Part shown: positions 4,701-64,000 of the stretch, piece after piece | Layout of the letters: each line of letters opens with the position of its first letter | Numbering within the stretch: the first letter of the stretch is position 1 | Assembly (NCBI GenBank): GCA_021463865.1 | Contig: JAJTXY010000013.1 | Span: 1 to 64,000 of the forward strand | Reading direction: 5' to 3' | DNA length: 64,000 nt | Origin: Anaerolineae bacterium | Lineage (GTDB): Bacteria; Chloroflexota; Anaerolineae; Aggregatilineales; J027 | Made by a program: the position numbers and the translations under genes | The notes under the pieces: generated by a model | Database searches by the model: none | Told to the model about the DNA's origin: nothing | The model's input: only the letters and a program-made list of their open reading frames with translations

Positions 4701-4738
4701 AATATTTATTGGGGTGGCAGTTGGTGCATGGCTTTACT

Positions 4739-4780
4739 CCCCCTCTCTGAAAGCCTTCGGAGAGGAGGCCGGGGGGTGAG
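4739..4780. repeat. Dispersed palindromic intergenic repeat, copy 1
   Basis: CCCCCTCTCTGAAAGCC is followed by GGAGAGGAGGCCGGGGGGTGAG. CCTCTC and GGAGAGG form a hairpin, followed by the G-rich tail shared with the other copies. The region 4701-4898 holds no gene. Confidence 0.6.
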
Positions 4781-4898
4781 ATCATGTACTCTAATTCACA
4801 AATTTTTCATACAAATCATGCCCTCAATACTATTTAGGTTTTTTTAACAATTCCTTACAATTAAATAACAACGCTCGATCAACAGAGAGGGATTTACC

Positions 4899-5852
4899 AT
4901 GATTGAAACCGAGGGCCTAACCAAATTTTTTGGCGACTTTGAGGCCGTGCATAACGTCAACCTCTCCGTTCCCCCCGGCACGGTCTTGGCAATCTTGGGG
5001 CCAAATGGGGCGGGCAAAACCACCACCATCCGCATGTTGACCTCAATTCTCGCTCCCACTTCTGGCTGGGCCAAAGTCGCGGGCTACGATGTCGTGAAAG
5101 ATGCGGCGCGGGTGCGGGCCAGTGTCGGGGTGTTAACCGAGCAGCATGGCCTCTATGAACGAATGCGCGGTCTGGAATATCTGGACTTTTTTGGACGCAT
5201 CTACCATCTCCCCCCCAACGTCCGCCAAGCTCGTGCCGAACAGTTGATGACTCGCTTCGGCTTGGGTGAGGCTTTTGACAAACGGGTTGGTGAATATTCC
5301 AAAGGCATGAAACAGAAGCTGGCCCTTGTACGTTCGCTGCTACATGATCCGCCTGTGTTGCTGCTGGACGAACCCACCAGCGCGATGGATCCGCAGAGTG
5401 CCAAATTGGTACGCGACGCCATCATCGAACTACGCCAAGACAAACGCACCATCATTTTGACCACCCATAATCTGACCGAAGCCGAAGCCCTTGCCGACAA
5501 CATTGGCGTGATTCGGCGGGGGCGCATTGTAGCCTATGGTGATATGGCAAGCCTCGCCACTCGTTTTGTTGGCCCGCCCCTGATGGAACTCAAAACCTCA
5601 CAACCGCTGAATGGCCTTGCCAAAGATTTAGGCCCGCTGGTCAAGGTCGTCGAGAACGGCGAAAACTGGCTGCGGTATGAGGCCTCTAATCCGACTGAAA
5701 TTAATCCGCGGGTCTTGCGCCATGTTTTAGGCTTGGGCATTGATGTCATCACCCTCAGCCAATTAACCCAGACATTGGAAGATGTCTACCTACAAATCGT
5801 TGAAGAAGATGAGGGGCAGGAGAAGAAATCCCATGAACGCGCTGTCCAGTGA
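4899..5852 (+). CDS. ABC transporter ATP-binding protein (ABC-2/NatA type)
   Basis: 317 aa with the full set of ABC ATPase motifs: Walker A GPNGAGKTT (about 38-46), signature YSKGMKQK (about 130), Walker B LLLDEPTSAMDP (about 150-160) and the H-loop TTHNLTEAE. The C-terminal ~80 residues form the extension usual in NatA/DrrA-type exporters. An AGAGAGGGA ribosome-binding site precedes the ATG. It overlaps the permease gene by 20 bases, so the two are co-translated and form one exporter. The substrate is unknown. Confidence 0.92.
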   Translation: MIETEGLTKFFGDFEAVHNVNLSVPPGTVLAILGPNGAGKTTTIRMLTSILAPTSGWAKVAGYDVVKDAARVRASVGVLTEQHGLYERMRGLEYLDFFGRIYHLPPNVRQARAEQLMTRFGLGEAFDKRVGEYSKGMKQKLALVRSLLHDPPVLLLDEPTSAMDPQSAKLVRDAIIELRQDKRTIILTTHNLTEAEALADNIGVIRRGRIVAYGDMASLATRFVGPPLMELKTSQPLNGLAKDLGPLVKVVENGENWLRYEASNPTEINPRVLRHVLGLGIDVITLSQLTQTLEDVYLQIVEEDEGQEKKSHERAVQ

Positions 5853-19521: not shown

Positions 19522-19560
19522 GCCCCTCTCCAAGCATTGGGGAGGGGTTTGAGGTGGGGA
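19522..19560. repeat. Dispersed palindromic intergenic repeat, copy 3
   Basis: CCCCTCTCCAAGCATTGGGG continues into AGGGGTTTGAGGTGGGGA. CCCCTCTCC/GGGGAGGGG makes the hairpin. It lies between HPPD and the reductase gene. Confidence 0.7.
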
Positions 19561-19596
19561 TAATTTTTCTTATAACTTTCATCGAGGAACATCAAC

Positions 19597-20406
19597 ATGA
19601 CCCGTATTCTCGTCACAGGTGGTACGGGGGCACTCGGCAGTGCCCTCGTTAAATTTCTGCTCACAACCGACCACCCAATCCGCCTCCTCAGTCGCAAACC
19701 TGCCCCTGCGAATCATGACCCCAACCTTGAATGGGTACAGGGCGATGTCTTAACCGGGGACGGCCTTGATACCGCCTTATCCGGGGTCAATATCGTCGCC
19801 AATTGTGTGGGGGATGCCCGCAACGCCTATGAAACCGATGTATTGGGCGTCAAACGCTTGGCGGAAGCATCTGTCAAAGCAGGCGTCCAGCATTTTTTCC
19901 ATATTTCCATCGCCGGGATTGACCAGATACCCTCCGAGTTTTATCAGCACAAGGTCAATGCGGAAAACGCCATTATCGAAAGCGGCGTACCCTATTCCAT
20001 CCTGCGTGTCACCCAATTCCATTCCCTGCTCGATTTTGTGATGTCTATGGTGCGATCCACTTCCGATGGTTATGTCCTGCCCATCCCCCATGATGCCCAA
20101 TTTCAGTTGATAGACACCCGCGATGTCGCCGCATATATGCTGCCCTTACTGACAGCAGCCCCCGCCGGACGTTTATTGGATGTGGGTGGGCCGGAAATTT
20201 TGCGTGTAGAGGACATCACCCGCACCTATCTCGCCGCACAGGGGGTCGAAAATCCCGAGTTGGTGGACGGCCCTATCGAAATTTTTGGCCCGGTTGGGGT
20301 CGCCGCCTTCCAACAAGGACTCAACCTTGTGCCGAAAAATCGTTATGGGCACATCACATGGGCCGATTTTGTCCGCGAGAAATATGGTAAAAAAAGTATC
20401 CTATAA
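19597..20406 (+). CDS. NmrA-like/atypical SDR NAD(P)-binding protein
   Basis: 269 aa. The Rossmann motif GGTGALGSALV (8-18) starts the protein, followed by NIVANCVGDAR and an HFFHISIAGIDQ strand in place of the classical YxxxK active site; KVNAENAIIESGVPYSILR is typical of the NmrA/complex I NDUFA9-like group. The C-terminal part probably binds a substrate or partner. AGGAA precedes the ATG. It sits between HPPD and the FAH-family gene, so a role in aromatic or quinone metabolism is possible, but members of this group vary widely. Confidence 0.8.
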   Translation: MTRILVTGGTGALGSALVKFLLTTDHPIRLLSRKPAPANHDPNLEWVQGDVLTGDGLDTALSGVNIVANCVGDARNAYETDVLGVKRLAEASVKAGVQHFFHISIAGIDQIPSEFYQHKVNAENAIIESGVPYSILRVTQFHSLLDFVMSMVRSTSDGYVLPIPHDAQFQLIDTRDVAAYMLPLLTAAPAGRLLDVGGPEILRVEDITRTYLAAQGVENPELVDGPIEIFGPVGVAAFQQGLNLVPKNRYGHITWADFVREKYGKKSIL

Positions 20407-20437: not shown

Positions 20438-20478
20438 TCTCCCCTCTCCACTCAGTGGGGAGGGGCCGGGGGTGGGGA
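20438..20478. repeat. Dispersed palindromic intergenic repeat, copy 4
   Basis: CTCCCCTCTCCACTCAGTGGGG runs into AGGGGCCGGGGGTGGGGA. It ends 15 bases before the ATG at 20493, and its G-rich tail may serve as the ribosome-binding site of the next gene. Confidence 0.75.
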
Positions 20479-20492
20479 TGGAATCGAATCCT

Positions 20493-21224
20493 ATGAAACT
20501 TCCCGATAAAATCAACTCCCTGCGCGACTTCTACGCCTTCGAGCAGCATGTCAAAACCGCCCGTGCCAATCGTGGCCTCGATATGATTCCCGAATGGTAC
20601 GAGATACCCGTCTTTTATTTTTCCAATCACAATGCCATTTTTCACGATAGCGACACCATCCCCATGCCAAGTTACACCCAGCGCCTCGATTATGAACTGG
20701 AAATCGCCTTCATCATCGGCGAGGGGGGTATCAATATTCGGGCTGAAAAAGCGCTACGCCATATTGCAGGCTACACCATCATGAACGATTGGAGCGCCCG
20801 TGATATTCAGATGAAAGAAATGCGCGTTGGGCTTGGCCCCGCCAAAGGCAAAGATTTCGCCACCTCGCTTGGCCCATCCCTCATCACCCCCGACGAACTG
20901 GCAGATCGTACCATCGGCACAGGCGCGGACTTGCGGTATGATTTGACCATGACGGCGCGGGTGAATGGACAGGAATTGTCCAGAGGTAACGCGAAAGATA
21001 TTTACTTCCCATTCGCTCAATTAATCGAACGGGCCTCGACGGATGTGATGCTCTATCCCGGTGATGTCATCGGCAGTGGCACCGTCGGCACAGGCTGTTT
21101 GTTGGAACTCGGCGGCGAAAAAAGTGCTTTAGGGCGCTGGTTGCAACCGGGGGATGTGGTCGAATTGGAAATTGAACGTCTCGGCATCCTGCGGAATATC
21201 GTTGGCCCGCCGCGTACTATATAA
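20493..21224 (+). CDS. Fumarylacetoacetate hydrolase family protein
   Basis: 243 aa from the ATG at 20493; GTG 20472 and ATG 20478 lie in the palindromic repeat and would add 5-7 residues. The FAH fold is shown by YELEIAFIIGEGG, the loop GYTIMNDWSARDIQ with the metal-binding acidic residues, KGKDFATSLGPSLITPDEL and GDVIGSGTVGTGC. Family members hydrolyse C-C bonds or decarboxylate (fumarylacetoacetase, 2-hydroxyhepta-dienedioate isomerase, oxaloacetate decarboxylase). With HPPD upstream, fumarylacetoacetate cleavage is the attractive guess, but the size resembles the shorter FahA-like group. Confidence 0.88.
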   Translation: MKLPDKINSLRDFYAFEQHVKTARANRGLDMIPEWYEIPVFYFSNHNAIFHDSDTIPMPSYTQRLDYELEIAFIIGEGGINIRAEKALRHIAGYTIMNDWSARDIQMKEMRVGLGPAKGKDFATSLGPSLITPDELADRTIGTGADLRYDLTMTARVNGQELSRGNAKDIYFPFAQLIERASTDVMLYPGDVIGSGTVGTGCLLELGGEKSALGRWLQPGDVVELEIERLGILRNIVGPPRTI

Positions 21225-21252
21225 CAATACTCAACAACTGGTAAAAATTCTG

Positions 21253-22056
21253 ATGAAACGCTCTATCATCTGCTTGTTATTCGTGTCGCTCATTCTGGTT
21301 GCCTGTGGTGGCGACGATGAGGCCGATCACACTACCCGCGATTTTACAATTGATTCTAACGCCGTCCTGACTCTCAATTTTGATGACCCCGCCGAATTTG
21401 AAACGGGCATATTTGATGGCGATTCCAGCCTTGCGATTGAGGATGGGCAGTATGTCATCCGCACCAACAACCCCGACGGTGCAAGTTATCTGTGGGGCAA
21501 AAACGACACCACCCCTCTTAAAAATGTGGTGATTGAGGTGCAGGCGACCAGCAACGGCGGCGAAAAAGATAATTGGTTTGGCGTAATGTGCCGCGTAGAT
21601 GATAGCGATTCCGGCTATGCTTTCCTGATTAGCGCCGATGGATTTTGGGCCATTGCGAAGGCCGACAGCCGACGTGGATTAGATTTTTTGGAGACGTGGA
21701 AAGAATCGAAGGCGATTGAGACGGGCAATAAATCCAACACCATCCAAGTCTACTGCGTGGAGGATTATCTGGCCCTCTATGTGAACGGCGAATTTGTGGC
21801 GGATCGCACCGATAAATCCTTTGATCGCGTGGGCGGTGTGGGATTATTGGCAGGTGGGGCGGAAGATCAACAGGTTGAAGTGCGTTTTGATACCCTGACG
21901 GTTAAATCGGCCTCCTTTGAAAATAAGCCAAATACCGCCACGCCGTCGCCAGAACCAAGCAATACCCCGACGGCGACCTCAACCACCACCGCGACACCGG
22001 AGGCCTCACCGACTGAGGGTTTAGTACCTGTCACTGTGCAACCAATAGGTAATTAA
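21253..22056 (+). CDS. Lipoprotein with LamG/DUF1080-like beta-sandwich
   Basis: 267 aa from the ATG at 21253. An upstream in-frame start lies inside the FAH gene. The signal peptide IICLLFVSLILVACGG has the lipobox LVAC. The domain that follows (about 40-225) has the pattern of concanavalin-like sugar-binding or glycosidase-associated domains: YLWGKNDT, NWFGVMCRVDDSDSGYAFLIS, VYCVEDYLALYVNGEFV and VGLLAGG. The last ~40 residues are Thr/Pro/Ser-rich. It is anchored outside the cell membrane. Function unknown; carbohydrate binding is possible. Confidence 0.75.
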   Translation: MKRSIICLLFVSLILVACGGDDEADHTTRDFTIDSNAVLTLNFDDPAEFETGIFDGDSSLAIEDGQYVIRTNNPDGASYLWGKNDTTPLKNVVIEVQATSNGGEKDNWFGVMCRVDDSDSGYAFLISADGFWAIAKADSRRGLDFLETWKESKAIETGNKSNTIQVYCVEDYLALYVNGEFVADRTDKSFDRVGGVGLLAGGAEDQQVEVRFDTLTVKSASFENKPNTATPSPEPSNTPTATSTTTATPEASPTEGLVPVTVQPIGN

Positions 22057-22064
22057 AAATTTTT

Positions 22065-22928
22065 ATGCTAACAAGAGACATCGCACTCAAAGCATATCAA
22101 GGTGTGGCGATTATGAATGAACCACTCTTGAGGCTTTCAGGATCAACTTTCACTCAAGAACACGCGGATGCTATTAAGTTAGTCCTAGATAATCCCTCTG
22201 ATTTTCGGGATTTGGTTCTTCAAGAATTAAGCCGTTTTCCTAAAATGGAATTATATTTTCGTCCCCTAATTGAAGCCCGTTTAAACCGGAATAAGATACT
22301 TGATAGTGATATACTCTCAAGCATTCTTCTCAATAAAAACGAGGTTGAAGAAAGATTGTCGAGAAATCATCTAAAAGTAAAGTATTTCGAATCCATTTTT
22401 AGTGAAGTTGGTTTGCCAATAGATGGGATTGAATCTGACGAGGTGTTCTTGGATATTTGGAACGAGTTATTGACTATTGATTTGCTTATCAATGACCCGC
22501 AATTAGGTTTTAGTGAGATCGAAAAAGTTGTTCGCCGCCGCGACTTAACTAAGATTGATTTATTGGCAACTTATGAAGGCCAAAAGTACGCGATTGAAAT
22601 AACTCGTCTTAGGAAGCGGGATTTTTTAGGCACTACTTTACCTAATATGGTAGATGCGATGTTTCTCAAAGAAAATCTTGATGATTTGCAGAATGCCCTC
22701 AAGAGCAAACTAAAGGATAAAGACAAGCAATTCCTCAGGTTTTGCAAACAGGAAACAGAATCATTCGATAAAAGACTTCTGGTAATAAAAACCTCTCAAT
22801 GGGAATATCAAGACGCCAGCAATATCCTTTTGGAACAAACGAAGCGACTGCTGGAAAATGAAGTTTATGAAGGTATTGATGAAGTTCTGATTGTTTATGA
22901 TGTCATAAATTTCGATTGGATTCGCTAA
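22065..22928 (+). CDS. Hypothetical protein, possible PD-(D/E)XK nuclease fold
   Basis: 287 aa from the ATG at 22065; MNEPLLRL at 22113 is an alternative start with AAGGTG before it. The gene is clearly more AT-rich than its neighbours. The C-terminal half contains KIDLLATYEGQKYAIEITRL (about 165-184), an Asp followed by a hairpin and E-I-T, like the core of restriction-endonuclease-like folds but with Thr in place of the usual Lys. The N-terminal half is helical and unrecognised. It is followed by small membrane-protein genes on the other strand. Function unknown; an endonuclease or defence role is only an inference. Confidence 0.55.
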   Translation: MLTRDIALKAYQGVAIMNEPLLRLSGSTFTQEHADAIKLVLDNPSDFRDLVLQELSRFPKMELYFRPLIEARLNRNKILDSDILSSILLNKNEVEERLSRNHLKVKYFESIFSEVGLPIDGIESDEVFLDIWNELLTIDLLINDPQLGFSEIEKVVRRRDLTKIDLLATYEGQKYAIEITRLRKRDFLGTTLPNMVDAMFLKENLDDLQNALKSKLKDKDKQFLRFCKQETESFDKRLLVIKTSQWEYQDASNILLEQTKRLLENEVYEGIDEVLIVYDVINFDWIR

Positions 22929-22957
22929 CAAAGAGCCATGCCGCCACCTTATAAAAT

Positions 22958-22996
22958 TCACCGTCCCTTCATCACCATTGCCATCAACTAAGGCCA
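22958..22996 (-). pseudogene. Remnant of the 3' end of a paralogue of the gene at 23675-24544
   Basis: On the minus strand this stretch reads P-stop-LMAMVMKGR-stop, close to the true C-terminus PQLMATLMKGR-stop of the gene at 23675. About 32 of 39 bases agree by eye. The internal stop shows it is no longer coding. It abuts the stop of the next gene (22998). Confidence 0.6.
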
Positions 22997-22997
22997 T

Positions 22998-23306
22998 CTA
23001 ATTCCCATCTGAAGTAACCTCCGGTGTTTGAGTTCTGGCTATCAAGGCATTGCTTTGATCTATATGACTCTCTATCGTCTGGATTTTAGCAGTCAAAGTA
23101 AGTCTTTGATCAATGCGGGCAATTTCTGGGCTGGTCAACTGAATGTAAGTTGCGACCTGCCAGTTGGTTGACCCATAGGTAGGGCCAAAGGGTTGATTAG
23201 CTTCGTAGTTGTTTGTAATGAAAATGGCCCCTACAAGGCACATCACTATAATCCCGAAAAGTGCCATGAAAATCCCAATCTGTAAGTTAGAGGGTCTTTT
23301 AAACAT
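22998..23306 (-). CDS. Small single-pass membrane protein of unknown function
   Basis: 102 aa. One N-terminal membrane helix (about 10-31, IGIFMALFGIIVMCLVGAIFI) is followed by a hydrophilic domain with a helical stretch (IDQRLTLTAKIQTIESHIDQ), perhaps a short coiled coil. No family recognised. It precedes, on the same strand, the remnant at 22958-22996 and follows another small membrane gene with a 46-base gap. Confidence 0.5.
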   Translation of the reverse strand: MFKRPSNLQIGIFMALFGIIVMCLVGAIFITNNYEANQPFGPTYGSTNWQVATYIQLTSPEIARIDQRLTLTAKIQTIESHIDQSNALIARTQTPEVTSDGN

Positions 23307-23352
23307 ACATCACCTCCGAAAAGCTACCGCCCCCTATGCTAAATTACACGAA

Positions 23353-23673
23353 TCAAAATCGAATTGCTTTTCGAGGGTGGGATTTCCTTTTGGGCGGAGG
23401 TAGCACAATCTTATAGAGCGCAAAGGCATGAACCAGTATGCTAATCGGCGTGAAGATGGTATACGCGCTATTTTCGGTCAGGCGCAGCAACAGCCAACTG
23501 ACAAACAAAATGATGCTTCCGCCGATGCTGTAGTAGCCGCCTTGCACGGCCTGTTTCCCAACCGCCGCGCCGATAGGGGACTGACGTTTACGAATACAAT
23601 AAATTCCTACTGCCGCCATCCCGATGCCGACAAAAATCAGCCATACATTCAAGCAGGTGGATTCAAGCGTCAT
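23353..23673 (-). CDS. Small membrane protein, three helices
   Basis: 106 aa with three hydrophobic segments (about 8-26, 47-65 and 72-90) and a basic C-terminus (PPPKRKSHPRKAIRF). Its start is immediately next to the stop of the gene at 23675, so the two are co-transcribed. No family is recognised. Confidence 0.5.
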   Translation of the reverse strand: MTLESTCLNVWLIFVGIGMAAVGIYCIRKRQSPIGAAVGKQAVQGGYYSIGGSIILFVSWLLLRLTENSAYTIFTPISILVHAFALYKIVLPPPKRKSHPRKAIRF

Positions 23674-23674
23674 T

Positions 23675-24544
23675 TCACCGCCCCTTCATCAACGTCGCCA
23701 TTAACTGCGGCCAGTACCAATAGGTTTCCGGCACTTCAAACGGCAAAGCTTTGAGTTCCGCCGAATCGCGCTGCAAGGAGGGCATCGGGCTGGCTGTACC
23801 GACCATCAACAGCAAAATAACCGCTATCCCCCGCGCATTAATCAAATCCAGCACCGAATTAAAGCCCACCGCTGGCTTTTCGAGCAGCGTCCCGCCCAAT
23901 TGACACCCCGCAAACGCCCCATAGAACCGCGCAATATTGACTCCGCCATCCTCCCGAAACATATGGATGTCCTGCCACGGCTTATTGGGGTACATTTCGC
24001 CGCGATCCCCCAACAGGGCACTGGCTTTTTCAACCGTGACCGCTTCGGGTGAGAAGAAAAACACATAACTTTCTTCGGTCACCCGCCGCATCGCCGTGCA
24101 ATCCACAATCATCTGGTCGTAATCGGCTTCGCTGGTCAAGCCCATGTGTACCCGTCCATCGTCATCCACGCTGTAGACCTTACCCATTTTGCTTTGACCC
24201 AAAAAGCCTTTGGCCCAGCGCAGCCCCGGCAGGTCATAGCGGATAAAACAGGCCATATCCGCCCCGGTTTCGCGCTCAAAGGTTTCCTCCGCCGTGCCAC
24301 GATCCGTAAAGGCGATGGCCGAAACCCGCAGCGGTTCATCGGCATCTACGATTTTGCGATCAAGGCCCATTTCCATATAGGCCAAAAAGCGTTCGGTGAC
24401 AGTGGCCTCATTGCGGATAGCATCCACGCGCAAATTGCCCATTGTGCGGGCGGCGGCTTCAACAGCGACATCATGCACATAGGCCGCCAGTTGTTGCAGC
24501 GAATTGGACGAGCGGGCAAGGCTGGAACGATTATCGTCAGTCAT
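23675..24544 (-). CDS. Hypothetical protein with a possible restriction-endonuclease-like core
   Basis: 289 aa. The N-terminus is helical and lists many Ala/Arg residues. In the middle, VTERFLAYMEMGL is followed by ERETGADMACFIRYD and WAKGFLGQSKMG. An acidic GAD strand followed by a strand ending QSK is the pattern in several restriction-nuclease-fold families (usually GAD...QaK). The C-terminal half is unrecognised. A promoter TTGATG-18-TATAGT lies 45 bases upstream. A degraded copy of its 3' end occurs at 22958-22996. Function unknown. Confidence 0.6.
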   Translation of the reverse strand: MTDDNRSSLARSSNSLQQLAAYVHDVAVEAAARTMGNLRVDAIRNEATVTERFLAYMEMGLDRKIVDADEPLRVSAIAFTDRGTAEETFERETGADMACFIRYDLPGLRWAKGFLGQSKMGKVYSVDDDGRVHMGLTSEADYDQMIVDCTAMRRVTEESYVFFFSPEAVTVEKASALLGDRGEMYPNKPWQDIHMFREDGGVNIARFYGAFAGCQLGGTLLEKPAVGFNSVLDLINARGIAVILLLMVGTASPMPSLQRDSAELKALPFEVPETYWYWPQLMATLMKGR

Positions 24545-24619: not shown

Positions 24620-25099
24620 TTACTGGCTCAAGGCAACCGAGGCAGCATCGAGGGCCGTTCCAGCGGCAAGCGCGGCACGGATACCCCGATCAATCACATC
24701 AGGTGGGGGTTGAGAACGCGGATTTTGACATTCAGCCTGCCATAGATTTACGGCGGTCTGGATTTCAATGGCGGCCTGCTGCAAGATCAGCGAGATAGGG
24801 TCATCACTGGAAAGGGCATCCGGGGAAACCTGCTGTTTCAACGCTGAGGCACAATCCACTGTGCGGTCTGCCTGCAAATCTGTCCACACCGTTTCGATTT
24901 GGGCCTGTGCCTCCGATAAGATACTGTAGGTAGATTCCAACTGCTCCCGTAATTCGTCGGTCAAGGTTGGGGTAGCTGCAATTTGCATCGTCGGCGTGGT
25001 TGCCGGGGTGGACTCAGATTTATCGTCGTTGGGCTTGTCATCACCACAGGCGCTCAATAGCAGCAAAATCAGCAGAGCAGGTATCCAATTTAAGCGCAT
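24620..25099 (-). CDS. Small lipoprotein, unknown function
   Basis: 159 aa. The signal peptide WIPALLILLLLSACGD carries the lipobox LSAC. A Thr/Pro-rich spacer (about 25-48) leads to a helical domain of ~110 residues that begins LREQLESTYSILSEAQAQIETVW and has two Cys (about 83 and 125) that could form a disulfide. It lies just before the hemW stop on the same strand, so it may share the hemW transcript. No family recognised. Confidence 0.65.
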   Translation of the reverse strand: MRLNWIPALLILLLLSACGDDKPNDDKSESTPATTPTMQIAATPTLTDELREQLESTYSILSEAQAQIETVWTDLQADRTVDCASALKQQVSPDALSSDDPISLILQQAAIEIQTAVNLWQAECQNPRSQPPPDVIDRGIRAALAAGTALDAASVALSQ

Positions 25100-25102
25100 A
25101 AT

Positions 25103-26299
25103 TTATGCTTCTTCCTCAATGGCAAATTCTTGAAAAACCCGGTTGCTAATCAAACGGGCCGATTTGGTTAATTTTAGTGCATCTCCATCCTGCCATAACA
25201 GTCCCAGACGGGTCAGGCGTTTGATTTCATCCGCGAATTTTATGTCGAGTTTTTCACCATACCGCTGCTCGAACGCCGTAAGCGATAGGCCCTCGTTGAG
25301 TAGGCGTAATCCCGTAAAAATCGTCTCGAACATATCGGTCTGGCGGTCAATTGGTTCCGAGGTCATCGTGGCAGGGGTCTGCGGAAAGGGCAAGGGGTTT
25401 GGCGGAGGATTCTTGAGGCGCTCGATATAAATTTCGGGCTTCATTACATTCACCGTGCGCGTCTGATTGACATAGCCATGTGCGCCTGCCCCCATTCCCA
25501 AATAAGGTAGATTTTTCCAGTATTGGATATTGTGTAGGCACTCTTTACCGGGTTTGGCCCAGTTGCTGATTTCATACTGAATAAACCCGGCCTTTTCCAT
25601 CATCTCACTGGCAAGCTCATACATATCAGCAGCAAGATCGGGGTCGGGCAGGGGGAGTTCCTTATAAGTCACCCGGCGTTTTAATTCCGTGCCGTTTTCC
25701 AGACTTAGTGCATATGCTGAGAGATGATCTGGATCGAGATCGAGGGCGGCCTGTAAAGAATCACGCCACATATCAAGTGCCTGAGATGGGGTTCCGTAAA
25801 TCAAATCGAGATTGATGTTGTCAAAGCCCGCCTGCCGTGCATATTTCATCGCCTGTATAACGTGGGAATGTTCGTGGTCACGACTAAACATCTGAAGTTC
25901 GGATGAATTCACTGACTGCATCCCCAAACTAATCCGTGAGACATATTTTCGTATGGCGTGTAAATATTCTTCGGTGGCATCACGCGGATTTAACTCTTGC
26001 GTGATTTCCAAAATTGGGCTATAAGTAAAATTTATTAGAACATGGGATATAATTTGTTCTAATTGAAAAGGTCGTAATAAACTAGGTGTCCCACCACCCA
26101 AATAAATGGTGTGGATACTTCGATTCAAGGCACCAAAGGATGCAATCTCAGCACAAAGTGCTCTAACATACTCGTCCAAAAGTGCGTGACGATCCGTATA
26201 GGTATTAAAAGCACAGTAGGTACAACGGGTTGCACAAAATGGGATATGCAAATAGAGTGACCATCCAAACTGCCCGTCCATTATTTTTCCTTTACTCAT
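25103..26299 (-). CDS. hemW: Radical SAM protein HemW (CPO-III-like heme chaperone)
   Basis: 398 aa. The radical SAM motif CATRCTYC (Cys 22, 26, 29) is preceded by LYLHIPF and followed by YLGGGTPSLL; ELNPRDATEEYL and GMQSVNSSELQMFSRDH are also family motifs. HemW proteins carry the CxxxCxxC cluster but lack the extra Cys of true coproporphyrinogen dehydrogenase HemN, and act as heme chaperones. The C-terminal HemN_C winged-helix region is present. It is the first gene of a minus-strand pair with the small lipoprotein. Confidence 0.9.
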   Translation of the reverse strand: MSKGKIMDGQFGWSLYLHIPFCATRCTYCAFNTYTDRHALLDEYVRALCAEIASFGALNRSIHTIYLGGGTPSLLRPFQLEQIISHVLINFTYSPILEITQELNPRDATEEYLHAIRKYVSRISLGMQSVNSSELQMFSRDHEHSHVIQAMKYARQAGFDNINLDLIYGTPSQALDMWRDSLQAALDLDPDHLSAYALSLENGTELKRRVTYKELPLPDPDLAADMYELASEMMEKAGFIQYEISNWAKPGKECLHNIQYWKNLPYLGMGAGAHGYVNQTRTVNVMKPEIYIERLKNPPPNPLPFPQTPATMTSEPIDRQTDMFETIFTGLRLLNEGLSLTAFEQRYGEKLDIKFADEIKRLTRLGLLWQDGDALKLTKSARLISNRVFQEFAIEEEA

Positions 26300-26661: not shown

Positions 26662-27948
26662 ATGGCAGAGTTGACCATAACTGAAAATGTAGCGGACTTA
26701 ATGTACAAGGAGATCCAATCTGGCGTTCATGATGCGCCCATTTTGGTCATGTATCCTCGCCATTACGCGCGAAATGCCCTTATTGCATTAATTCTGCGAA
26801 AAACAAAGAATCAAATTTACTACTATCCCCTCCGTGAAGAAGATACCACTTTACGCAAGATGTTGGGGAATTTGGTGAATGATGCCCAATTCCCGTCTGA
26901 TTTTGGAGCGCAAACCACCTCAGCCCTCAAGAAAAATGAATCGCCCCAAAGCCTAGCTGAAGCGTTCGCTGCTGATCTCAAGTCACTTCGCAAAGATCAA
27001 TATTTCCTAGCGCTAGATGAATTGGATCGCATCCCGCGTGACTCGGCTGAACTCGATAGTTTCTTCCGCGTACTCGCCGAAAAGCTGCCCAAAAACGTTA
27101 GAATTCTGATTAACGGTAGAGAAATGTTTCGCCAGCCATGGAATGATCTAATCCTCAATGGACTAGCAGCCACTATAGGGGAAAATAATGCGGTGGAAAA
27201 CGGCATTTTTAGAGAACCAGCTCAACGTGGACAGATTGAATTCTATTCACTCTCCGGCAGTTCACGCTTGATGAGTGATGGTCGCGCTGTACATAGCTGG
27301 GATGGATCGTTGCCCCGGAATCTGGCATATTATTTCATTGACCACCATATGGTGACACGTGACGAAATCTTCCGCATCTTCTGGCCCCATTTGGGTGTCA
27401 AAGAAGCGACTAATGTCTTCCATGTCACCAAGCGCAAGATTTCTGAAAAATTGGGCTATGAAATTACGGCCTATAGCGGCGGATTCTATGTCCCCTCGCC
27501 CCGCGTCAATATCATGTATGATGCACGTGAATTTGAGAAACAAATCGAAGAAGCCCTTGCTGGCCCGGATGATGTAGCGCCCGCCAAATGGTATCGCGCT
27601 GTCCAACTCTATCGTCATCCCTATCTTGAGGGTCTCGATATGCCTTGGATGCTTGAGAAACGCGAAAAACTACGCAACGACTTCGCCCAAGCCTTGATCG
27701 GTCTAGGCCGTATGCACCGCGCTTTGGGTGAGCTTGACCGCGCTTTGGGGTATTTCCTACGCGCCGTTGCTGAGAAGCCAGATCGTGAAGATGTGCATCG
27801 TAATATCATGACGATCTATCACGAACAAGGTCGCATCAAAGATGTGCAGGCTCAATATAAGCTACTGGAATCTACTTTGAAGCGCACATTGGGTATTGCC
27901 CCATCCACTGAAACCCGCGCGATGTTGGAACTCTATACCAGCAACTAA
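26662..27948 (+). CDS. BTAD/winged-helix transcriptional regulator with degenerate ATPase-like N-terminus
   Basis: 428 aa. The C-terminal ~130 residues have the BTAD (SARP-type) TPR pattern: WYRAVQLYRHPYLEGLDMPWMLEKRE, then a TPR ending YKLLESTLKRTLGIAPSTETR. Before it a winged-helix DNA-binding domain is suggested by RDEIFRIFWPHLGVKEATNVFHVTKRKI. The N-terminal ~200 residues look like a STAND/AAA-type ATPase: APILVMYPRHYARNALIA replaces a P-loop and YFLALDELDRI resembles Walker B, so ATP binding is doubtful. A likely regulator of unknown targets, alone on the plus strand with a good terminator. Confidence 0.75.
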   Translation: MAELTITENVADLMYKEIQSGVHDAPILVMYPRHYARNALIALILRKTKNQIYYYPLREEDTTLRKMLGNLVNDAQFPSDFGAQTTSALKKNESPQSLAEAFAADLKSLRKDQYFLALDELDRIPRDSAELDSFFRVLAEKLPKNVRILINGREMFRQPWNDLILNGLAATIGENNAVENGIFREPAQRGQIEFYSLSGSSRLMSDGRAVHSWDGSLPRNLAYYFIDHHMVTRDEIFRIFWPHLGVKEATNVFHVTKRKISEKLGYEITAYSGGFYVPSPRVNIMYDAREFEKQIEEALAGPDDVAPAKWYRAVQLYRHPYLEGLDMPWMLEKREKLRNDFAQALIGLGRMHRALGELDRALGYFLRAVAEKPDREDVHRNIMTIYHEQGRIKDVQAQYKLLESTLKRTLGIAPSTETRAMLELYTSN

Positions 27949-62970: not shown

Positions 62971-63125
62971 CTCTATTCCTTCTGACACAAACAGAACAAC
63001 ACTACAGACACTGCGATCTTTCTCAAATAACGGTTAACTCAGTGTTAGGTGGATTAGTCACGATTGGATTTTTGGGATTTCAGTTAGGTTGAAGATTTGA
63101 ATCCGCCGTCTAATGTAAACTTAGC

Positions 63126-63154
63126 ATTATACATGGCTTTCAAAATCAAGTCAA
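63126..63154 (-). promoter_or_regulatory. Promoter of rpoB
   Basis: On the minus strand TTGACT (63154-63149) and TATAAT (63131-63126) are 17 bases apart, near consensus. The leader to the ATG at 62970 is about 150 bases and AT-rich. Confidence 0.8.
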
Positions 63155-63277
63155 TAAAAATTTTACTTTTCATTATTTGAAGCTACAAATGTACCCTCAT
63201 CATTGGGAGATTCCTGCATATACATGAGTGTTACAATAAACCAAAATATGCCCTTCATCAGCTGAGGAAGATTTGCT

Positions 63278-63916
63278 ATGAATAATATGAGTATCCTAAA
63301 AGAGAAATTGGCCTATTTGCGAGATAATGAGGATTTTAGTAACGCAGGCAATCCATACACTTACTTTAGCTCGAGGTATCGTTATCAGCTTGGCCCATGT
63401 CTTGAAAATTCCAACATTCGGTCTATTGAAAAACAATATCACCTGACAATCCCTGACGATTATCGGCGTTTTCTGATCGAGGTGGGAAATGGTGGTGCAG
63501 GGCCAGCATGGGGGCTATATAGCATTGAAGAAGGCTTCAAAAAACTTGAGTTTGAACTCAAAAATATCCCTAACTTTTTTGAACGACCATTTCCGCATAC
63601 TACGACTTGGGAAGAACCTGATGAAGCCTGTGGGGAAGATAATCTTGATCAAGCAACTGGCTCACTACCTATCTGCAATTTCGGTTGCGCTATTGATTTA
63701 ATTCTTGTTCTGATCGGCCCTGAGCAAGGAAATATTTGGATGGATGATCGAGCAACCTGCAATGGAATTGCCCCTTTAACAAAGGTAAACGGCAAAATCT
63801 ACTGGCCCTACTATGAAACTGCACCAAGTAGTGGTACTCATGTGGATTTCTATACATGGTATAACACTTGGCTTGACAAGGAAATTTCCGGCTTGAATAG
63901 CAGGTTGGGACGCTAG
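63278..63916 (+). CDS. SMI1/KNR4 (SUKH) family protein, probable orphan immunity protein
   Basis: 212 aa. The SUKH fold is indicated by IRSIEKQYHLTIPDDYRRFLIEVGNGGAGPAWGLYSIEEGF, followed by late strands ending in a THVDFYTWYNTWL block. GAGGAAG precedes the ATG. SUKH proteins often protect against polymorphic toxins. No toxin lies beside it in the window. The DNA is more AT-rich than rpoB, hinting at transfer. The last 84 bases of the window after it hold nothing recognisable. Confidence 0.75.
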   Translation: MNNMSILKEKLAYLRDNEDFSNAGNPYTYFSSRYRYQLGPCLENSNIRSIEKQYHLTIPDDYRRFLIEVGNGGAGPAWGLYSIEEGFKKLEFELKNIPNFFERPFPHTTTWEEPDEACGEDNLDQATGSLPICNFGCAIDLILVLIGPEQGNIWMDDRATCNGIAPLTKVNGKIYWPYYETAPSSGTHVDFYTWYNTWLDKEISGLNSRLGR

Positions 63917-64000
63917 GTTTTATTGAGTCCCCATGCCCAATAAATTCGGGTTTTCTATTCAAAAAATTATACTAATAGCCGCGCTAAATCCTAAAAAATC

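Follow-up and report, generated by a model that had tools for sequence, protein, structure and literature searches.

Results

Gene content of the locus

The window analyzed here, a stretch of 64,000 nucleotides (nt) with a GC content of 50.8%, lies on contig C5 of the 4.9-Mb, 59-contig genome of an uncultured Anaerolineae bacterium of the Chloroflexota (G000) and carries a protein-coding gene, referred to as gene 2, behind whose 3' end a group of small accessory genes is located (Table 1). Gene 2 forms a conserved anchor, the content of the interval behind it varies from genome to genome, and copies of its 3' terminus, drawn from the last 39 nt, recur at junctions within this interval. The interval was compared in five congeneric genomes (G000 itself together with G001, G002, G003, and G004), and the occurrence of individual genes was assessed in a set of 61 relatives, comprising 10 genomes of the family (the source genome, its four congeners, and five others) and 51 others of the order, as well as in 400 genomes drawn from the phylum.

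Table 1. Coordinates of the features at the locus (aa, amino acids; ORF, open reading frame)
Feature	Position	Strand	Remarks
Lipoprotein-like gene	21253..22056	+	Conserved left edge of variable interval; synteny in G001, G003, G004
Gene 1	22065..22928	+	ORF, 287 aa, orphan, AT-rich; D165, E178-I-T
Degraded copy of gene 2 3' terminus	22957..22996	-	39-40 nt, 83% identical; 1 nt past gene A stop
Small gene A	22998..23306	-	102 aa, one membrane-like segment (simple hydropathy scan); accessory
Small gene B	23353..23673	-	106 aa, two membrane-like segments (simple hydropathy scan)
Gene 2 3' terminus	23674..23713	-	LMATLMKGR-stop; proposed attachment-like site
Gene 2	23675..24544	-	289 aa, family-restricted, conserved; G94-A-D96, Q117-S-K119
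Lipoprotein-like gene	24620-25099	-	Right flank, conserved
HemW-like radical SAM gene	25103-26299	-	Right flank, conserved

Conservation of gene 2

Gene 2 was present in all 10 genomes of the family that were examined, being broken in one of them (G008), and outside the family it had no match in the 51 others of the order, in the 400 phylum genomes, or in a viral scan; a nine-member profile found the source genome as its sole match in the phylum set. A wider contig search with gene 2 returned 9 loci, which are apparently the nine family genomes already found. Within the genus, the protein is 98 to 99% identical to that of the window, despite an identity of just 61 to 74% at fourfold-degenerate sites, and the gene is therefore apparently subject to strong purifying selection. 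The preliminary description of this locus, which was drawn up from the window alone, had assigned the whole region to an accessory patch, and for gene 2, found throughout the family and highly conserved in the genus, this assignment had to be abandoned. In G008, a member of a more distant genus, gene 2 (L021, ~4716 to 5556, minus strand) is split into two frames with an in-frame stop, a break which may be a sequencing error, since the coverage of the contig is only 2.5.

Farther along the right flank, the segment 26001 to 27000 has a GC content of 38.5%; it precedes and overlaps the start of a gene for a BTAD-type transcriptional activator (26662 to 27948), which shows 93 to 99% amino acid identity in the congeners.

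The variable interval and its small genes

Each of the five congeneric genomes possesses its own distinct set of small genes behind gene 2. Read from gene 2 outwards, these sets consist of (i) gene B, gene A, a repeat copy, and gene 1 in reverse orientation in G000; (ii) a decayed piece of ~210 nt, the end of which resembles that of the 117-aa gene of G002, a repeat copy, gene B, a broken DUF4177-like piece, and gene A in G003; (iii) in G001, a relative of gene A (50% amino acid identity) and a 221-aa gene, followed by a repeat copy and by a 188-aa gene in reverse orientation; (iv) in G004, genes of 104 aa and 216 aa, the latter related to the 221-aa gene, and one of 154 aa in reverse orientation; and (v) in G002, genes of 117 aa and 244 aa, each followed by a repeat copy, the second of which is short and precedes the contig end. 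Eleven accessory genes or gene pieces, out of 14 listed, share the orientation of gene 2. The two small membrane genes that had been described between genes 1 and 2 were recovered as genes A and B, and the notion of an accessory patch does apply to this part of the locus, where gene 1 occurs in no other genome and the content of the interval varies.

Genome-wide searches, which among the accessory proteins covered A and the 221-aa protein, placed gene A in three of the five congeneric genomes (3/61 genomes), at this locus every time, and the 221-aa gene in 2/61 genomes, solely at this locus. The ortholog of gene B in G003 shows 92.5% amino acid identity. None of the accessory proteins exceeded a family cut-off in two Pfam scans, and PHROGs and PADLOC, each of which was scanned with part of the proteins, gave nothing convincing. 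The genes common to several species (A, B, and 221) have diverged within the range of core genes, with the 221-aa gene at the upper identity edge and gene A of G001 below the range; since these shared genes diverge like their core neighbors, the array looks old and largely inherited.

A separate feature of the intervals is an 86-bp stretch with 86% identity between the otherwise unrelated intervals of G001 (L015:9267-9352) and G002 (L014:14916-15001). By eye it contains an inverted repeat, the 8-nt arms of which enclose a spacer of 2 nt (CCGTTACC-GT-GGTAACGG in G001 and CCGTAACC-GT-GGTTACGG in G002), and the arms of the two genomes differ by a matched change; it is possibly a small repeat element.

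Copies of the gene 2 terminus at junctions

The pair formed by the terminus of gene 2 and its copy in the window (40 nt) ranked first of the 8 direct-repeat families found there (at least 28 nt, within 4 kb), and a 19-base core occurred twice in the window with up to 3 mismatches, against an expectation of 0.01. Translated by eye in the frame of gene 2, the copy reads W P (stop) L M A M V M K G R (stop), and the degraded 39-bp copy with an in-frame stop noted in the preliminary description was thus seen again, at 40 nt and 83% identity.

In the five genomes, 14 junctions were scored against the observed alleles of the last 39 nt of gene 2. Six junctions, distributed over four of the five genomes, scored 13 to 31, while the best of 1500 random flank windows of the same length scored 12 and these junctions, read on the reverse strand, yielded 5 to 9. 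The junctions with a copy are A/tail in G000, 117-gene remnant/B in G003, A/221 and 221/188 in G001, and 117/244 and 244/end in G002; because the 117 and A junctions each occur in two genomes, they represent at least four junction positions. The score of the B/A junction in G000 was borderline (85 of 1500). When all five loci were scanned on both strands with one allele, the four strongest copies were obtained, on the strand of gene 2 only, and the A/221 and 244 copies were detected only when all alleles were allowed.

The copies, ~20 to 39 nt in length, follow one another at a spacing of ~0.2 to 0.9 kb, with one or two small genes to each. Their start falls within ~3 nt of the stop codon of gene A (G000), of the 117-gene remnant (G003), and of the 221-aa gene (G001), and ~5 nt past the stop of gene A in G001. 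Upstream of the repeat, the sequence GAAAC.TATTGGTA is present in all five intact gene 2s and absent from the six copies. A blastn search of the intervals with full-length gene 2 (E < 0.1) returned only pieces inside nt 832 to 870 of the gene, in G000, G003, G001, and G002, and no piece in the interval of G004; tblastn at the same threshold returned only the C-terminus in G000 (E of 0.01). The copies at junctions are restricted, as far as can be detected, to the last 39 nt of gene 2.

Gene 1 and the left edge of the interval

On the other side of the interval, DNA similarity with G003 ends at 22039 and restarts at 23014, and similarity with G001 and G004 ends at 22034/22039 and restarts at 23675, the stop codon of gene 2, apart from one short piece at 23215 to 23333, around the start of gene A, within the gap of G001. 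The synteny breaks in related genomes that had been put forward as a check on the preliminary description were accordingly found. Gene 1 has a GC content of 37.2%, compared with 50.8% for the window, and bears the D...ExT core (D165 and E178-I-T) ascribed to it beforehand. Its matches in the 61 relatives and in the 400 phylum genomes (one in each set) were in both cases itself, and no relatives were found among plasmids, phages, and viral contigs. The upstream lipoprotein-like gene has a C-terminus unlike that in G001, G003, and G004, its last codons diverging where gene 1 begins. From the position of the G003 breaks, the altered C-terminus of the upstream gene, and the orphan status and low GC content of gene 1, the latter looks like a separate, recent insertion behind the lipoprotein-like gene.

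The upstream gene itself shows a weak match to lectin/glucanase-like domains (Pfam 3-keto-disac_hyd, E of 6.6e-05, below the cut-off). The region 20490 to 22056 is 86% identical at the DNA level in the more distant congener G001, where longer flanking alignments reach 77 to 78%; since single genes outside this region are likewise 86 to 90% identical in G001, the high identity may reflect constraint and not recombination. Two further features of the window lie apart from the interval: a 39-nt, G/C-rich palindromic element (CCCCTCTCCA...GGGGAGGGG), present at 19523 to 19561 and 20441 to 20479 with 82% identity on either side of the gene at 19597 to 20406, which looks like a dispersed intergenic palindrome, and a fall in GC content to 39.5% in the last kilobase (63001 to 64000).

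Possible resemblance of genes 1 and 2 to nucleases

The preliminary description had likened the products of genes 1 and 2 to restriction endonuclease folds. The motif residues on which the comparison was based are present, including the GAD...QSK core of the ORF at 23675, and the fold assignment itself was not confirmed. Gene 1 lacks the lysine at the third position of (D/E)xK. In the gene 2 alignment (A1, nine family sequences), D96 and K119 are invariant (9/9) and Q117 is Q in seven sequences and L or H in two, so that gene 2 is without a conserved D...(D/E/Q)xK signature. Gene 1 had no significant profile match in Pfam, NCBIfam, PADLOC, PHROGs, or PDB sequences, and profile searches with gene 2 gave no significant match. 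The AlphaFold2 models were unusable, with a mean predicted local distance difference test (pLDDT) score of 42 for gene 2 (9 sequences) and 38 for gene 1 (single sequence), and Foldseek searches with these models returned nothing at E <= 0.001. Residues 149 to 280 of the gene 1 model follow a helix-strand-strand-helix-helix-strand-helix-strand order, which at a pLDDT of 38 is suggestive only. Motif cores as short as these mean little by themselves, and the two genes can be regarded as candidate PD-(D/E)XK-like proteins purely as a lead.

Discussion

Gene capture at protein-coding 3' ends is already known for integrase-carrying elements; searches of the open-access literature showed no earlier report of the locus behind gene 2. 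The conserved anchor, the variable content behind it, and the tail copies at junctions can be explained by recurrent entry of small accessory genes at the 3' end of gene 2 through site-specific integration, an account to which we give about an even chance of being correct. According to this proposal, (i) each insert would place one or two short genes directly past the stop codon of gene 2; (ii) a copy of the last ~20 to 39 nt of gene 2 would be pushed to the far side of the insert and would then decay; (iii) gene 2 would be kept whole, with attL/attR-like direct repeats left by integration at its 3' end; and (iv) repeated integration in tandem would lead to a build-up of inserts. As no recombinase was found in them, the inserts would be either remnants or units mobilized in trans; an intact relative with an integrase beside gene 2 was not found in the ten family genomes. 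The small genes are probably expressed through read-through and translational coupling from gene 2, which we infer from the start codon of gene B being located 1 nt past the gene 2 stop (TGA-A-ATG), and the AAGGGG within the repeat could serve as the ribosome-binding site of gene B.

A close parallel to such a build-up is the accretion of integrative and mobilizable elements (IMEs) and cis-mobilizable elements (CIMEs). A review of IMEs (PMC5704250) describes elements with a tyrosine recombinase that reside at the 3' ends of protein genes between repeats of 8 to 60 bp, as well as an accretion in tandem that includes decayed CIMEs, in which repeated integration at the same end builds tandems and decayed members are without integration genes. 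The units at the present locus differ in being ~0.2 to 0.9 kb in size, with one or two small genes, and in that no integration or mobilization gene was found. SCC (staphylococcal cassette chromosome) elements enter the 3' end of orfX/rlmH, generate direct repeats, and form composite tandem insertions; in these respects they resemble the locus, the gene concerned being a conserved one in both cases, and they differ from it in their much larger size and their ccr recombinases. PAISt, which inserts at the 3' end of bacA (PMC4057263), resembles the locus in that a protein-coding gene harbors the site at its 3' end and in its modular excision, and differs in being a large island with an 8-bp palindromic site in another gene.

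Several observations weigh against integration as the source of the array: (i) no recombinase was present among the insert proteins scanned, although serine recombinases were not searched for; (ii) G000 has six tyrosine recombinase (PF00589) matches, all of them on contigs other than C5, and the one match on contig C7 of G001 lies more than 300 kb from the locus; (iii) 8 of the 14 junctions, including all three of G004, are without a clear copy; (iv) two of the six copies start farther from the preceding stop codon, ~15 nt past the 117-aa gene and ~60 nt past the 244-aa gene in G002; (v) the divergence of the shared genes falls in the core range, so that recent movement is not seen, and the gene order fits one old array plus losses; and (vi) sequences resembling the repeat occur elsewhere. 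With respect to the last point, a 23-base consensus, when up to 3 mismatches were allowed, matched 31 times in the ten genomes; 9 of these matches belong to this locus and 22 lie elsewhere, compared with 2 for a reversed-pattern control. In favor of the proposal, matches with 0 or 1 mismatch were confined to this locus, and all those elsewhere had 2 or 3. Nineteen of the 21 readable matches elsewhere lie within open frames that comprise 243 codons or more, at least 114 nt from the frame end, and the remaining two are in frames of 109 and 93 codons; several recur, in two to four genomes each, at seemingly the same gene, with the same or nearly the same letters. Since most sit in long open frames, the excess can be attributed to coding sequence and to orthologs recounted per genome, and these matches look like coding coincidences and not a second array, although weak related sites may exist.

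An alternative that does not require a dedicated recombinase, and that we view as a serious though less likely rival, is that slipped tandem duplications copied the tail of gene 2 together with the next gene, and that RecA-type exchange between such tails within the population then shuffled and deleted the small genes. It is consistent with the core-range divergence of A, B, and 221 (gene A in G001 having diverged more), with a gene order that is compatible between genomes, and with the lack of a recombinase among the insert proteins scanned. However, all detectable copies are confined to nt 832 to 870, while random events should have copied longer or other parts of gene 2, and three of the copies abut the stop codons of unrelated genes.

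We consider it rather unlikely that the locus represents a new integron-like system, in which gene 2 would supply an attI-like site at its 3' end, each cassette would consist of an ORF and a trailing site, and a tyrosine recombinase would act in trans. The attC of integron cassettes is placed just past the stop codon, and the layout of ORF, stop codon, and site seen for A, 117, and 221, the small ORFs without a family match over the cut-off, the prevailing orientation along gene 2, and the presence of tyrosine recombinases in all five genomes would be in keeping with such a system, as would polar growth from a fixed end. On the other hand, the integron integrase model TIGR02249 exceeded its cut-off in none of the five congeneric genomes, there are few sites per locus, and a second array was not found in the ten genomes. 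A simple fold test, which is not an attC covariance model, revealed no consistent hairpin at five sites on both strands, with z-scores of -0.4 to 1.6 for four of them and about -2 for the copy in G003. Membership of the array in an integron was dropped in view of the missing integrase and the lack of a conserved fold at the sites, and the locus was not filed as such. Integron cassettes and CALINs (clusters of attC sites lacking integron integrases; PMC9024848) share with the locus arrays of small, mostly co-oriented ORFs; they differ from it in that no IntI over the cut-off and no conserved site fold are found here, and in that the repeat derives from the 3' end of a coding gene.

A cassette system of a non-integron kind, in which the coding 3' end of the anchor would be the docking site and each single-gene cassette would restore the last codons and the stop and bring along a trailing site, strikes us as improbable; the same applies to its corollaries, that expression would be coupled to translation of the anchor and that the anchor, possibly a nuclease-like protein, might take part. 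Finally, duplication of the whole or a large part of gene 2 followed by decay to 39 bp, the model of the preliminary description, fits the existence of the 40-nt copy, which is 83% identical and contains a stop codon, but is very improbable. No further segment of this 870-nt gene is detectable in the five intervals, and since the tail recurs in four genomes, at six of the 14 junctions, including junctions of unrelated genes in three genomes other than that of the window, several decays would have had to end independently at the same terminal 39 nt, which is unlikely.

To conclude, the locus behind gene 2, with its repeated build-up of small genes, provides a compact test case, in an uncultured lineage, for whether very small units without a visible recombinase move on their own. 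The results also illustrate that a short sequence which resembles a gene remnant can be the footprint of a junction instead of a dead gene copy.
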